From an endosymbiont of Escarpia spicata (GTDB lineage: Bacteria; Pseudomonadota; Gammaproteobacteria; Chromatiales; Chromatiaceae), in contig QFXE01000010.1 in the NCBI GenBank assembly GCA_003349915.1, positions 62,001 to 126,000 of the forward strand: a stretch of DNA of 64,000 bases. Direction: 5' to 3'. The translations under genes were made by a program, and so were the position numbers. The notes beneath the pieces were generated by a model that was not told the DNA's origin, searched no databases, and saw only the letters and a list, made by a program, of their open reading frames with translations. This document shows, in pieces, positions 3,685 to 54,071 of the stretch. Position 1 is the stretch's first letter; each line of letters begins with the position of its first letter.

Positions 3685-4971
3685 TTCACCGCCTCCACCA
3701 ACATTGCGCCGCCCTGGCCACCACCGATGCAGAGACTCGCCACACCGGTTTGCGCATTATTTTGATGCAGGTTTTTTACGAGATGCAGAACCAGCCGCGC
3801 GCCGCTTGCGCCGACAGGATGGCCGATGCTGATGGCACCGCCATCCACATTCAGCCGATCTCTGGGGATAGGTGCGAGCGGTTTGCCAATACCCACTGTT
3901 TCCTGCATGTAATCGGTATCCTTCCAGGCAGTGAGGCAGGCGAGTACCTGTGCTGCGAAGGCTTCATTAATCTCCCAGTAGTCGATGGCTTCACTCTCCA
4001 GGTTTCTGCGCTGCAACAACCTGGCCATGGCATGCACCGGACCCAGTCCCATCTGACTGGGATCGAGTGCACTCCATTCGGTATCGATGATGCGGCCAAG
4101 CACCGGTAGATGGTGCTGTTCGACGGCGCGTTCGGATGCGAGTAACAATAGGGCGGCACCATCAGTCACCTGGGCGCTGTTGCCGGCAGTAACCTTGCCG
4201 ACCGGGCGGTCGAAAACCGGCCGCAGGCGGGCCAACTGTTCCATATCGCTGTCGGGACGCAGACCCTCATCCGTCTCATAGAGATTACCCTTGTGGTCGA
4301 AGATCGGTTCGATCGTCATCCAGACGTTTTTCGTTGGCGGCCTGTGCGAGATGCTGATGGCTCAAGAGGGCAAAGGCATCCATCGCCTCACGACTGATGT
4401 TGAATCGCCATGCAAGTTTTTCCGCAGTCTGTCCCATGGAGAGGCCGACGATCGGATCTGTCAGACCTCGCAGCAGAGCGATGATCAGCTGAAAATGGTG
4501 GGGACGCAGGGCGGCAAGCTGACGGCTGCGGGCGGTGAAACTCTTGGTGCGGTTCCATTGGGCGAGCCAGTTGAGCATGCGGTCGTTAATGAGTACCGGG
4601 TGGTGACTCATCGCCTCGGTACCGCCGGCCAGAACCAGATCACTTCGCCCAGTGGCGATATTTTGTGCGGCACTGTCCAGCGCCTGTAATCCCGAAGCGC
4701 AATTACGCTGTACGGTCCAGGCAGGCACCTTGTCGCCGCAGCCGATACGCAGCGCGGCAACCCGTGCGATATTGACTTCATCCGGACCGGATGAGACACA
4801 TCCGAGGATGACTTCATCCAGTTGGGACGGACTGAAATTGTGCCGGGCCAGCAGTGGCCGGCCTGCGGCAACCGCAAGATCAGATGCCCGGAAGGGGCCG
4901 GGACGGCCCTTCATCTTGATGAATGGTGTACGGCTTCCATCCACGATATAGACGGGTCTCTTCTCTTCCAT
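3681..4971 (-). pseudogene. fadI: Thiolase (acetyl-CoA C-acyltransferase), frameshifted into two halves
   Basis: Two overlapping reading frames (4971-4285 and 4319-3681) together encode one thiolase of about 430 residues. The N-terminal half starts MEEKRPVYIVDGSRTPF and has the nucleophile motif VQRNCASGLQA (Cys near 91); the C-terminal half holds the catalytic histidine GHPVGASGAR and second cysteine ASLCIGGGQGGAM. The break falls near 4311-4320: the upstream frame reads RLDD and then leaves register, while the downstream frame resumes IEPIFDHKGNL, as expected after LDD. One extra base explains it. All catalytic residues survive, so this is either a very recent mutation or a sequence error. 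It cleaves 3-ketoacyl-CoA, the last step of beta-oxidation, and its stop overlaps the fadJ start. FadI is preferred over FadA because of gene order. Confidence 0.85.
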
Positions 4972-29311: not shown

Positions 29312-29461
29312 ATTCGTCTATTTTGTGACTTCTCTCCCTGGAATTATTATCGGTTTTCCTCAAGAATAGTGGTTATGTGCCGAAAATCTGATCATTCAAG
29401 GGCTTTTGCTGTTATCAGACAGACATCGGGTTTTCGTAATGAAAGAACAGATTATATTGAG

Positions 29462-30100
29462 ATGAAACGGGCCAGAAGCAGGAAAAAATGCTCCATGACG
29501 GCAGGCAGATCACTATTGATCTTCTGCCTGCTGGTTTCCTCGTCTCCCCTGATGGCGCAGATCTTCAAATATCGAGCACCGGATGGGCACATCCATTTCA
29601 CCGACCATCCCATGGCGGGCAATTATCGCCTCTTATGGAAATCTGCCCCAGCAGCCAGCGCCTACGGCGATTACTCTGTTGCAGCGTTCAAACAGAACAA
29701 ATCAAAACTGTCACCGCTGATTGACGCAACTGCCAAAAATATGCGTCTGCACCCGGGGTTACTCCACTCGGTGGTGCGGGCGGAATCTGCCTACAATCCC
29801 CGTGCGGTTTCAAAGGTGGGTGCTCAGGGGCTGATGCAGCTGATGCCGAAAACCGCCAGGCGTTACGGCGTCAACGACTCCTTCAACCCCCGGCAGAACC
29901 TGGAGGGTGGTGCACGTTATCTGAAAGATCTTCTGCAGCAGTTCGGTTTCGATTTGAAACTGGCCTTGGCGGCATATAATGCCGGTGAGGGTGCGGTTAA
30001 GAAGTTTGATAATCAAATCCCCCCCTATCCCGAAACACAACAGTATGTGAAAAAGGTGATGGGCTACTATCGCACCCACCTGCAGGGATCCGCCAACTGA
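29462..30100 (+). CDS. Exported lytic transglycosylase with N-terminal DUF4124 domain
   Basis: A 212-residue exported protein. A basic, then hydrophobic, leader ends at LMAQ near residue 34; next comes a DUF4124-like segment (IFKYRAPDGHIHFTDHP), then the Slt/LysM-type goose-lysozyme fold with catalytic-glutamate motif VVRAESAYNPRAVSKVGAQG, LMQLMPKTARRYGV and ALAAYNAGEGAV. It cuts peptidoglycan strands with formation of anhydro-muramyl ends. The frame is open from 29369, but the signal peptide begins at ATG 29462. Confidence 0.9.
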   Translation: MKRARSRKKCSMTAGRSLLIFCLLVSSSPLMAQIFKYRAPDGHIHFTDHPMAGNYRLLWKSAPAASAYGDYSVAAFKQNKSKLSPLIDATAKNMRLHPGLLHSVVRAESAYNPRAVSKVGAQGLMQLMPKTARRYGVNDSFNPRQNLEGGARYLKDLLQQFGFDLKLALAAYNAGEGAVKKFDNQIPPYPETQQYVKKVMGYYRTHLQGSAN

Positions 30101-30209: not shown

Positions 30210-31209
30210 TTATCCAACCATGAGATAATCCACTCCCCGCCGGTACCCCATATCCTCAAGTTCCTGCCGGATGAGATCCTGCGCGCCGTGGTTGGTGACA
30301 TAGACGAGAACAAAAGGTTTGCTCTCCTGTAGAAGCCACTCGGGTGAGACGACTGGGATACCCTGCAAACGGTTTCCAATCTTACGTGGATCGATATCGA
30401 TCCAGGCCTTTACCTGAAAACCCTGCTTCAACAGCCGCTGACAGCGTTTACGGGTTTTGCGCCCGGCACCCCAGATCACCAGTTCGTCGCGTCGTGCCAG
30501 TAGTAGTGGATCCTGGGCGAGGTAGTGGGCACGCAACTGATCGAACGCTTCCCTGCTGCAACGTGGATCCTGCCTGGAGATGCGGTTTTCACTCTCCCGC
30601 CAGTCGAGCAGGATCTGCGGCAGCTTGGCCATCCGGTAACCGGCAAGGTACAGCCTGAACCAGAGATCGTAATCCTCGGGAAACATCCCTTCGCGATAGC
30701 CACCCGCTTCAATGATGGCTTTGCGCCGGAACATAACACTGGGATGGGCAAAGGGGGATTCGATGTAGATATCCGCAGCAATCTCATCAGGATCAAGGCA
30801 CTGGTTTTGCCAACGCACATATTCACGGTAACCTGCCTGGATCAAAGTTTCCGGGAACAGTCTGACCTGGCATCCCACCAGGGTAATGATTTTGTTTTGC
30901 TGCAGATAATCCACCTGTAATTGCAGGCGCTGTTGATCCATCAGGTCGTCAGCATCCATGCGTGCAATCAGTGGAGAAGTGGCCTAAATTCAGTGCGTTG
31001 ACCAGACCTGGGTGGGGATTGTGCAGCAGGCGTATCCGCTTATCGCAATTGGCGTGTTGCTGCACCACGCTGCAGGAGTCATCATGACTGTGATCGTCGA
31101 TGGCGAGCAGTCGAAAGTCCTGAAAGGACTGCTGCCTGATGGAAGTCAGACAGGCATCAAGTGTGGTCGCCGCATCACGGAACGGGAGGATGATCTCCAG
31201 CTTGATCAG
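30210..31209 (-). pseudogene. Family 2 glycosyltransferase with C-terminal Rossmann-like domain, frameshifted
   Basis: The long frame (30959-30210) begins at MDADDLMDQQRL, which is the middle of a GT-A fold: MDADD is the metal/nucleotide-binding motif. Upstream, another frame encodes the missing N-terminal half: LEIILPFRDAATTLDACL, SFQDFRLLAIDDHSHDDS and NPHPGLVNALNLG. They join near 30962-30985 if one base is removed. The C-terminal part, VIWGAGRKTRKRC and AWIDIDPRKIGN, looks like a nucleotide-binding sensor domain. The N-terminal frame has no ATG; the earliest candidate is a CTG at 31209 overlapping the PilZ stop, so the start is uncertain. The enzyme would transfer a sugar to a surface glycan. 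It follows a PilZ gene closely and may form one operon with it. Confidence 0.78.
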
Positions 31210-31550
31210 GAGATGCTTGCCCAGTCCACAATCATGGTATCGATGACAGTGGTCACTTCATCCGAGATGTCGATGATACGAAAGCCGGTCCAATAGGTAT
31301 CGGGTTGAGCGGCTTCGCTGCACCAGAGTGCTTCAGCACCAAACGAAATCTTGCTATGACCCTTCACCAGATACGGGAGCCGCATATCCAACTGGTAAAT
31401 GGACCCCGTCTTGATGGGGTTGGCGCTGAGCAGCATGAAGCCTTCAACGGTGATATTTACCACCTGCCCCATGTAGGCCGCCGTTATTTGGTCCAATACT
31501 TCAAGGACTTCATTGGCTATCTTGCGTGGCAGAATACGGTGCTCAACCAT
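31206..31550 (-). CDS. PilZ-domain protein (predicted c-di-GMP receptor)
   Basis: A protein of about 114 residues. The PilZ c-di-GMP signature is present in two parts: RILPR (RxxxR) near residue 5 and NITVEG (D/NxSxxG type, Thr for Ser) near 37, followed by a beta-barrel-like pattern and the end motif GFRIIDIS. The frame is open to 31700, but the region before ATG 31550 lies inside the DUF1631 gene and has no PilZ similarity; ATG 31550 overlaps the DUF1631 stop by eight bases. The glycosyltransferase gene begins at or near its stop codon. Binding to c-di-GMP is predicted from motifs only. Confidence 0.75.
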   Translation of the reverse strand: MVEHRILPRKIANEVLEVLDQITAAYMGQVVNITVEGFMLLSANPIKTGSIYQLDMRLPYLVKGHSKISFGAEALWCSEAAQPDTYWTGFRIIDISDEVTTVIDTMIVDWASIS

Positions 31551-33957
31551 CGGCTGGATTCCTATAGGTGCTACCGGGAACCTTTGACCAAGCGTCTTCT
31601 CCCGTCTCGTTATCGTTAGTGATATTCTCAGCAATCTCTTCTGTTGCCTTGAGAGAGCGTTGCAGCATTCTGCGAATGGCGTGCAGCGTGCGTTCGACAA
31701 ATGGGTCGTTGCTCTCTTCTAGGATCTTCGATTTTCCGTCCATGATCTCTTGTGCCAGTTTGCGCAGGGGTTTTATGGCGGTTTGCACTCCGGCCCTGTC
31801 CACGAACATGCATGAGAACGTCAACGGGCTGAGCCATGAAAGTTTCACCCGTCTGACATCATTGGGACCGCTGCTGAGATCAAACCAGGTGCCGAACTCG
31901 ATTTTACGTAACTTGTCCATCATCCTCAGGAGATCGTCAGGGATCTGCTCTTTGGACTCAGTGGGTTCCGGAACAGGTATAGGAGGCTCTGGTTGAGTGG
32001 TTTGAAAAGGTTTTGCTTCAGGCGCTTTTGGGGTGCTGACACTCTTGGGTTCACTGACCGCAGATGAGCCGGCAGACATGGCGTTTTCTGCATTGGCCAG
32101 GAGTTCGAAAAGTGCACGACTCTTCTCCTGATGGTAGCCGCCTAGAGACTCAAGTCCTTCTTCAATCGTATTGCGCAGGTAGGGTAGAGTCTTCTCAAGT
32201 TCCTTCCGCTCATCTTGGGTCTTTTTCTCTTCAAAGACCCAAGCCAGCTCATCTGCAACATGCAGTGCGTCCTTCCAGTCTTCACTCATCTCACCATCGG
32301 GGTGGCGCAGCAGGATGAAGATCAGCTTGTCCGTCCAGGTTTGAACCAGAAAGTCCTTCGCCACCTGAGGCAGGGAGGAACCGAAGGTTCGGGCTTTCAT
32401 CTCCTGGCCTGCCCTCTGCCTTGCATCGTTGAGCTTTTCCCGCCCCTTGGCTGAGTCCTGAGCCCGTTTTTCCAGAACCTCGGTTTTTCGGCGAAAATCA
32501 TCCATTCTCGCCTTGAAGTTGGTCAGCAGATCGGAAAAGAGTTTGATGTCGTCAGAAAACTCTTTGAGTACGCGATCGACTACCGCCTGCATGTCCGGAT
32601 AGATACCACGCTTGAGATTGTGCTCATCGATCCAGTGGCTGCCTGCTTCAACCATGCAGTCGAGTAGCTGGCGAGCATCGTGATTGCTGTCGGTGAGCAG
32701 ATGACGGTCGATAATAGCCACTTTCAGGTAGGGTGTGTGCAGGTGACTGATCAGAGCCTTGGCGACTGCAGGAAGAACCGGATCGTTCAGCATGTATTCA
32801 AACAGCATTCCGACAAGATCGATGGTGTCTTCATCCACAGTATCCAACTGATCAGTGTCAATCTGACTGTAGAGTTTGTTTCGCTCCTCGATCAGTGTCT
32901 GTTTGATACGGGTAAGGAACTGCTCATCGAGTTCAATGTTTGGAATGAACGGGGCTTCTGTCGAAGCATCGGGCAGATAATCTGATCTTGTGGCTGGCTG
33001 AATATCATTAAGTGCGGAGACAAGGTTCGCGGTAGTGGGCAGCTGCCCGCCGCCGGAGTGCCCGCTGGCGCCACTCACTCTACCAGCTGACCCACTCCCA
33101 CTCCCCTGCGGAGCTGCTGAGTGTCTTTGGGGTGAACTGCCACGCCGGGATGCGAGGAGACCGATGATTGAGTCAAAGAGTTCTTCCCCTAGATCCTCTT
33201 CTGAGGTTGCGGCGTTTTGATCCTCGGTTTGCTGGGCACTCTTGTCCGCTTTGCCACCGTGTTGGCCAGCTGCCTGCGGATTTCGGATAGTAGGTCTAAG
33301 GTGGGGCAGTACACCGGCATCCTTGAGGTTGTTGTTGAAATCCTCATACAGAGAGCCTAGCTGCTTCAAAACGTACTTGTTGAAAAGCGCGAGAACAATA
33401 AGCTTGATGTTGGATTCGAGACTCAGACTGTCGATAGCACTGGCGAAGGCGTCGACAAGATGCTGCGGGGAGGCAGGGGTCCTGTTTTTTTCTATCGCCT
33501 CGCCACCGTTGATAACTGCAAGACGCTGGCTCAGTGCATAGAGTTGAGACCGATGGCCGATGGTCGCTTTACTGACCATGTTTTCGATGGCCGTGGTTTG
33601 ATCCATGGAGTCGTCATCGACCAGTTCGAGTTCGATATCGCTGCCCAGATCGGAGAAGGGATCACTGTCCGGTTTCCTTGCCCAGAAATTATCAAAACCT
33701 GCGCTGAGTTGCTCTCTGAACTCATGTTCCACCAGGCCGTGGCGGTTCCGAATCAGGCTAATCGCTTCAAAAAAGCGATTCTGCATCAGATCGTTCTCCG
33801 CTTTTTGGGCGAAACTCATCAACGCCTTGTCCGTGTTGGCAAACAACTCGGTCAGCAGGGCGCTAACATAGACCAGCACCATGTCCTTGCAGCGGCTCAT
33901 GAGTGGTTGAAACTGGGTCTGATATTTACTTTTTCGTGATTCCGGTGATGGCACCAT
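31543..33957 (-). CDS. DUF1631 family protein
   Basis: An 804-residue cytoplasmic protein, largely helical, that I recognise as the DUF1631 family of proteobacteria; some databases mislabel members as thymidine phosphorylase. It has acidic and Gly/Ser-rich linkers around residues 230-310 (for example SGSGSAGRVSGASG), a long central helical part and a C-terminal region with GTWFDLSS followed by a beta-rich PilZ-like segment (RRVKLSWLSPLTFSCMFVDRAG). TTG 33972 is possible, but GAAGGA lies seven bases before ATG 33957. Its stop overlaps a PilZ gene, so the family may act in c-di-GMP output; no biochemical function is established. Confidence 0.82.
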   Translation of the reverse strand: MVPSPESRKSKYQTQFQPLMSRCKDMVLVYVSALLTELFANTDKALMSFAQKAENDLMQNRFFEAISLIRNRHGLVEHEFREQLSAGFDNFWARKPDSDPFSDLGSDIELELVDDDSMDQTTAIENMVSKATIGHRSQLYALSQRLAVINGGEAIEKNRTPASPQHLVDAFASAIDSLSLESNIKLIVLALFNKYVLKQLGSLYEDFNNNLKDAGVLPHLRPTIRNPQAAGQHGGKADKSAQQTEDQNAATSEEDLGEELFDSIIGLLASRRGSSPQRHSAAPQGSGSGSAGRVSGASGHSGGGQLPTTANLVSALNDIQPATRSDYLPDASTEAPFIPNIELDEQFLTRIKQTLIEERNKLYSQIDTDQLDTVDEDTIDLVGMLFEYMLNDPVLPAVAKALISHLHTPYLKVAIIDRHLLTDSNHDARQLLDCMVEAGSHWIDEHNLKRGIYPDMQAVVDRVLKEFSDDIKLFSDLLTNFKARMDDFRRKTEVLEKRAQDSAKGREKLNDARQRAGQEMKARTFGSSLPQVAKDFLVQTWTDKLIFILLRHPDGEMSEDWKDALHVADELAWVFEEKKTQDERKELEKTLPYLRNTIEEGLESLGGYHQEKSRALFELLANAENAMSAGSSAVSEPKSVSTPKAPEAKPFQTTQPEPPIPVPEPTESKEQIPDDLLRMMDKLRKIEFGTWFDLSSGPNDVRRVKLSWLSPLTFSCMFVDRAGVQTAIKPLRKLAQEIMDGKSKILEESNDPFVERTLHAIRRMLQRSLKATEEIAENITNDNETGEDAWSKVPGSTYRNPADG

Positions 33958-34336
33958 CACTTGATCCTTCAACGCGATTGACTAAATCCGACTTGAGCCA
34001 GTATCTGCCGGCATCAGGTCTTTAACCCGCACACTCTCCCCAATCGTCTTTATTCTCATGCGGGAACACCAGAGCATCATTGGCTGCCTTTCCCGCTAAG
34101 GTTAGCACAGACGAAACTGATTTATGAAACAGAAAGTTAGACAGGTTTTCTCATGAGCAGCGATTAGTTGGCGAAGGGCCAATTGGCTAAGGCCTGTTAA
34201 TGCTGCATCCGAATAGTGTTAACTGGCCCCAAGTAACAGAAGGAACGAAAGGCAGTGGGGAAATCTGGGGAATATCATTCTGATAACGTAACTGAATTCA
34301 GCTGAATTCGCCTCTAGGGCTGGCCAGCCCTGATTT
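33958..34336. other. Intergenic region between divergent DUF1631 and HDOD genes
   Basis: About 380 bp without a convincing gene. It has GAATTCAGCTGAATTC (34300 area), a 16-bp palindrome, and a short GGCTGGCCAGCC palindrome near 34319. A sigma-28-like promoter follows immediately. No RNA gene or repeat family member was recognised. Confidence 0.5.
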
Positions 34337-34397: not shown

Positions 34398-35265
34398 ATG
34401 AATGCCGAGGAACTGGTCAAAGGGATAGAACATCTGGTTTCATTGCCGGATGTCTGTATCAAGGTCAATATGATGGCTGATTCTCCGCTCTATTCATCAA
34501 AAGATATCGGGGAGGTGATCTCTCAGGATACCGACCTTTCCGCACGCCTCCTGAGTTTGGTCAACAGCGCCTTCTACGGTATGCGGGCTCCGGTGGATAC
34601 CATTTCCAGAGCTGTTACGGTCATTGGTACGAAGGGTCTGCGCAACCTGGTTCTGGTTACCTCGGCGGCGGAGGTTTTTACCGGCATCCCTGCCGATTTG
34701 GTCGATATGACAGAATTCTGGCGATACTCAGTGACGACCGGGGTTATTGCCAAGGCGCTCTCAACCCAATGCAATGTTTTGCATGGTGAACGCCTGTTTG
34801 TGATGGGTGTACTGCATGATATCGGCAGGCTGGTTATCTACTTGCGCCTGCCGGAGCAGTCGCGGGATGTATTGCTGATTGCCGGGGGGGGACGATGCCA
34901 TTCTTGCTGACGCTGAGGCGGATGTTTTCGGTTTTACCCACATGGATGCAGGTGCAGCATTGCTGAAAACCTGGAAACTGCCGGAAAGCCTGATCGCCGT
35001 CGCAGGAACTCACCATGAACCGATGAATGCGGGCGACTACCGGCTTGAGGCTTCCCTGGTAAACATCGCGGGCTTGCTTTCACAGGGTGAAATGAGCGGT
35101 GAGCCATTGGATGAAATTCTTGATCAGGTACGGCCCGAGGTCTGGCAGGCCACTGGTCTGGACAGCGATAAAGTTGCATCGGTGATGGAAGAAGTTCCGG
35201 CCCGGGTGGCCGAGGTACTGGATGTCGTGCTGGCGCCCAATGTGCCTGCAGAGCAAAGGCGCTGA
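34398..35265 (+). pseudogene. HDOD-domain signalling protein, out of frame at an 8-G tract
   Basis: Frame one (34398-34910) encodes the first half of an HDOD domain (DTDLSARLLSLVNSAFYGM, TVIGTKGLRNLVL, GVLHDIGRLVIY), and a second frame to 35265 supplies the rest (HMDAGAALLKTWKLPESL, GTHHEP, DEILDQVRPEVW). They meet at eight G at 34884-34891; seven G would give AGGDDAILADAEAD and one protein of about 289 residues. HDOD proteins resemble HD-GYP phosphodiesterases without full metal sites and act in signalling, often of motility or c-di-GMP. The upstream sigma-28 promoter fits that. It may be a phase-variable locus or a homopolymer read error. Confidence 0.85.
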
Positions 35266-53974: not shown

Positions 53975-54071
53975 TTTGGTATGATTGTCGCCTTTTGCGG
54001 TATCTGCGCTCACCTGGGCTGGTTTCAGGAACGGAGGTTCCTATTCACTGGCCCGGATATCATTAACATCC

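Follow-up and report, generated by a model that had tools for sequence, protein, structure and literature searches.

Does the compact gene set in this tubeworm symbiont, comprising a DUF1631 gene, a PilZ gene and a glycosyltransferase (GT) frame, represent a single regulatory unit, and which of its members belong to it? The window analyzed here is a 64,000 nt stretch of contig QFXE01000010.1, from an endosymbiont of Escarpia spicata, and its features of interest are listed in Table 1. The initial annotation read the three genes as a surface-glycan module, in which PilZ-bound c-di-GMP controls the GT and the DUF1631 protein serves as a scaffold. Its placement of the DUF1631 and PilZ genes is confirmed by Pfam matches, and the eight-base overlap it described between them is exact. 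Among the surveyed loci this overlap (-8) is found only in this genus of vestimentiferan tubeworm symbionts, and elsewhere the two genes are separated by a short gap, mostly of 2–83 bp.

Table 1. Features of the DUF1631-PilZ locus, in window coordinates.
Feature	Position	Strand	Evidence
SLT lytic transglycosylase with DUF4124	29369..30100	plus	PF01464, 102 bits
GT2, C-terminal piece (rest of GT2 and Rossmann-like C-terminal domain)	30210..30983	minus	PF13641, 27.9 bits
GT2, N-terminal piece	about 30988..31233	minus	PF00535, 44.5 bits; aligned with five congeners
PilZ protein, 114 aa, single domain	31206..31550	minus	PF07238, 23.8 bits; RILPR and NITVEG motifs
8-bp overlap of DUF1631 stop and PilZ start, ATGGTTGA	31543..31550	minus	
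DUF1631 protein	31543..33972	minus	PF07793, 586.7 bits; AlphaFold2 model; dN/dS among congeners

The SLT gene is convergent with the operon and holds the same position in most relatives that have the DUF1631-PilZ pair; it is probably a neighbor marking a conserved position rather than a member of the module. In most relatives DUF1631 is preceded by a gene for a small, roughly 72-aa protein (MPYFVYK...ERVIGED; e.g., L051:5647-5862, L066:8386-8604 and L217:3070-3303). This protein has zero matches in Pfam and NCBIfam, and the tubeworm-symbiont genus lacks its gene at this position. The ancestral order is likely to have been small gene, DUF1631, PilZ and GT, convergent with SLT and YchJ, with parts repeatedly lost. 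Upstream and divergent in the window is an HDOD gene (34398-35265), which is a single 288-aa frame in congeners and is interrupted here by a single additional G within a G run near 34890, making it either a pseudogene or an assembly error.

The DUF1631 gene has two start options, TTG at 33972 (809 aa) and ATG at 33957 (804 aa). Its PF07793 score is far above the cut-off of 33.7 bits, with positions 4–737 of the 741 in the profile covered, and it is under purifying selection (dN/dS 0.12–0.14 among the congeners compared). Among named genomes, the best DUF1631 matches are in endosymbionts of the tubeworms Lamellibrachia and Escarpia, with Candidatus Thiodiazotropha and Sedimenticola next. A second DUF1631 copy is present in the genome that carries the window, and has no adjacent PilZ. 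The AlphaFold2 model (mean pLDDT 74.7, pTM 0.50) predicts a helical body (residues 10–635), disordered linkers, a small beta-barrel (696–751) and a long helix (758–789). Foldseek returned no match to the full-length model at E ≤ 0.001, and a sequence search of solved structures with the DUF1631 profile gave zero matches. The C-terminal segment had been described as beta-rich and PilZ-like; the first part of this description stands but the second probably does not, as RxxxR and [D/N]hSxxG are found in neither the consensus nor the invariant columns of 51 DUF1631 C-terminal segments, and the fold search favors Tudor/SH3-like barrels, with no PilZ structure in the matches listed. The predicted barrel aligns with the TraI translocation-signal domain (Z 8.3, rmsd 2.1, 67 residues) and with Spindlin Tudor domains (Z about 7), although Z values near 8 may mirror just an arrangement common among small barrels.

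The neighboring PilZ protein passes the PF07238 cut-off (22.5 bits) marginally, while its counterpart in a Pseudomonas relative (L145) scores 37.1 bits. Its RxxxR motif is RILPR, and its [D/N]h[S/T]xxG motif is NITVEG, in which Thr replaces the Ser of most relatives. R5, R9, G28 and G37 do not vary across a 29-row PilZ alignment, and N32 hardly varies; R5 and R9 also appear constant, by eye, in a larger alignment, and the complete homologues aligned in the locus survey retain both motifs. Selection is again purifying (dN/dS near 0 to 0.18 among congeners). Solved structures searched by sequence with the gene-pair PilZ profile yielded zero matches. Elsewhere in the genome is another PilZ that fits this broad profile (G000:C2:608106-608429; L184:5978-6445), with no DUF1631 alongside, and a similar PilZ in L185 adjoins PhoU-like and phosphate-transporter genes (named by eye).

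The case for a linked unit depends on how often the two genes occur together elsewhere, which the initial annotation had itself put forward as one of the points that could refute its reading. Of the 79 loci retrieved with a DUF1631 profile, 41 have PilZ as the next gene downstream in the same orientation; the survey was seeded with the window's type of DUF1631, so its proportions do not represent the family at large. The PilZ of these loci keeps RxxxR and [N/D]h[S/T]xxG, and Thiodiazotropha, most Sedimenticola and Pseudomonas benzenivorans are among them. There is sufficient downstream DNA but no PilZ beside DUF1631 at 35 of the 79 loci (11 of Chromatiaceae type and 24 others, mostly Xanthomonadales), and the remaining three are cut off. 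A sample of 229 genomes taken across Gammaproteobacteria gives a different picture: DUF1631 is present in 73, and a PilZ profile search found a PilZ adjacent to it in only six of these, from four families. The nadC/FKBP-linked type of DUF1631 has no adjacent PilZ. Since most DUF1631 genes of the class have no PilZ next to them, DUF1631 can work without one. The two results are reconciled by a tree of 130 DUF1631 sequences, where all PilZ-adjacent members group in a single clade (support 0.94). This clade includes P. benzenivorans as well as representatives of three further families whose flanking genes differ, and PilZ has been lost within it in Chromatiaceae and in L047/L147. The pair is flanked by SLT and YchJ in Sedimenticolaceae, by rnhA-, dnaQ- and gltX-like genes in G113, and by hemW-like and prolidase-like genes in G197 (the last two sets named by eye from protein starts). 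Adjacency is thus rare for DUF1631 overall but usual within one clade spanning several families, and the link between the two genes is stronger than the window alone could show.

A second connection between PilZ and DUF1631 is seen in long, multi-domain proteins that form a separate clade in the tree (n = 20, support 1.0). All eight that were scanned with Pfam contain DUF1631, GGDEF and EAL domains, and five of the eight have an N-terminal PilZ above the cut-off; most of the other long proteins carry RxxxR and [D/N]F[S/C]xxG-type motifs at their N-termini. The gene-pair PilZ profile found none of the fused PilZ domains, so adjacency and fusion are not close copies of one another and look either independent or very old. 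Fusions of this kind are classic evidence for joint function and, judged from domain content, PilZ and DUF1631 probably work together.

The reading we favor, with slightly better than even confidence, is that DUF1631 and PilZ are a two-gene, split c-di-GMP receptor unit in which PilZ acts through DUF1631. The single-domain PilZ would bind c-di-GMP via RxxxR and [N/D]h[S/T]xxG, and the bound and free forms would differ in how they dock on the large helical DUF1631 protein or in what they release from it, presumably by direct contact. DUF1631 would then carry the output, if control runs in this direction, and the final target would most likely be an envelope or surface process. The gene pair could be seen as the split counterpart of the one-chain PilZ-DUF1631-GGDEF-EAL proteins, which add domains for making and breaking c-di-GMP. 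The c-di-GMP part of the original proposal is well supported because of the clade-wide adjacency and the PilZ/DUF1631/GGDEF/EAL fusion clade. Against a split receptor are the many DUF1631 genes of the class that have no PilZ next to them, the Thr for Ser substitution in the window PilZ, the other PilZ genes in the genome, and the sub-branch of Chromatiaceae in which DUF1631 has no PilZ alongside.

It could be argued instead that the two genes are merely co-transcribed, with PilZ an ordinary c-di-GMP receptor for some other target, such as pili, flagella or the envelope. The many DUF1631 genes without PilZ would fit this, as would the frequent action of single-domain PilZ proteins on distant partners, an example being the PilB-PilZ-FimX complex (PMC8389850). 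However, bystander status is hard to square with a pair that is kept across deep divergence while its flanks change, or with a second, distinct PilZ fused to DUF1631, and simple co-location is considered unlikely.

The three-gene surface-glycan module of the initial annotation, with c-di-GMP-bound PilZ switching the adjacent GT2 and DUF1631 as scaffold, is somewhat more doubtful again, and it is the glycan part that is weak. Cellulose synthase and Alg44 are established cases of PilZ-controlled GT2 enzymes, and an intact GT directly follows PilZ in five congeners and in L094, L114, L122, G021 (L214) and G028 (L216). The GT is also under purifying selection within the genus (dN/dS 0.10–0.19 among congeners), and its domain is intact in the congener G005 (PF00535, 86.2 bits). 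In the window, the N-terminal piece does lie in a frame that opens at or before the PilZ stop (TCCTGATC), much as had been proposed, but the GT as a whole is broken into two frames and has no usual start. An 11-bp deletion at about 30986 puts the C-terminal piece out of frame with the N-terminal one, and an alignment shows this deletion to be specific to the window; the five congeners (L032-L035 and L037) are intact and hold GGCCTGCATCAGGCC, a perfect inverted repeat, at this site. An ATG, GTG or TTG start before the GT2 domain is absent from all six genomes (the window and five congeners), which have the start region CTGATCAAG in common (window 31200-31215), implying that the start would be CTG or AUC if the frame is translated. 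Programmed -1 frameshifting from PilZ into the GT was also considered and set aside, as no slippery heptamer was seen by eye. Purifying selection in the congeners indicates that the GT was functional until recently, or else that the deletion is an assembly fault. A comparison with G005 over some 60 kb of the window leaves about five frameshifts that are not compensated, of which two fall in G runs, so the 11 bp may be truly deleted or lost in assembly. Away from this locus, uncompensated frameshifts relative to G005 are at window positions 4315, 12091 and 54046-54068, one of them in a G run.

The distribution of the GT also bears on the glycan module. The claim that it consistently accompanies the PilZ unit fails, as it is missing beside most pairs, including those of Thiodiazotropha and most Sedimenticola, while G017, G007 and G033 have it with no pair next to it; a decayed copy follows PilZ in G018. 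In G017, and at a contig edge in G014, the GT still faces the SLT gene. The intact congener protein consists of GT2 with a Rossmann-like tail and is predicted to be soluble, not a BcsA-like membrane synthase. Since the GT is often missing after PilZ and can be present where the pair is not, a dedicated glycan switch is only a minority view, and the GT is better seen as an older, optional addition, disrupted or recently lost in the symbiont. In some lineages it may be among the enzymes under control, but the general output has to be something else. Finally, that the locus is a partly relic operon decaying in the symbiont, as the 11-bp GT deletion, the small upstream gene missing from the genus and the frameshifted HDOD gene might suggest, is very improbable given that DUF1631 and PilZ are both intact and under purifying selection and that some of the frameshifts may be assembly errors.

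The split receptor can be compared with several described systems. Both PilZ receptors with partner proteins and DUF1631-GGDEF-EAL proteins, the latter visible to Pfam, are already known. The window PilZ resembles single-domain, c-di-GMP-binding PilZ proteins (PF07238) in its RxxxR and [D/N]hSxxG-type motifs, its length (about 110 aa) and its single domain, but differs in being genetically tied to a DUF1631 gene, as well as in its Thr. The fusions combine the same two modules, but in one chain with cyclase and phosphodiesterase domains, in a separate DUF1631 clade, and with a PilZ that the pair profile misses. BcsA and Alg44 also place PilZ next to glycan chemistry, but there it is either part of the synthase or a membrane subunit, whereas the GT of the window is predicted to be soluble, and is separable and broken. 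In the FimX-PilZ-PilB complex of Xanthomonas a PilZ protein also works via a large partner, as proposed here; its PilZ is degenerate and c-di-GMP is bound by FimX (review PMC6637768), whereas the window PilZ retains both motifs. The only named DUF1631 group found was the PacR family (NCBIfam NF058594), which is homologous to the window protein over most of its length; the window protein scores 287.2 bits against a cut-off of 1200. PacR members above the cut-off were found in a single family (f13); in its genomes G045 and G197, the DUF1631 copy that qualifies as PacR is not the one beside PilZ. Open-access literature contains passing mentions of DUF1631 with no described function, no mention found of PF07793, no usable paper found on PacR, and no account found that makes DUF1631 a partner of PilZ. 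In P. aeruginosa, the DUF1631 gene next to nadC is presumably PA4523. A rise of PA4523 at biofilm dispersal has been reported (PMC13128677).

More broadly, it can be proposed tentatively, with the balance still somewhat against it, that DUF1631 is a new class of c-di-GMP output protein in many gammaproteobacterial families, with a helical scaffold and a Tudor-like barrel, set by a PilZ subunit that is either separate or fused with GGDEF-EAL as a self-sensing enzyme. The scaffold role is plausible but putative. Two distinct links to PilZ, by adjacency and by GGDEF-EAL fusion in different clades, make DUF1631 a testable c-di-GMP output family. PilZ proteins outnumber known targets in many bacteria, and a conserved PilZ partner is a useful lead. 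In the symbionts of tubeworms and lucinids, DUF1631 might contribute to switching between free-living and host-associated states.
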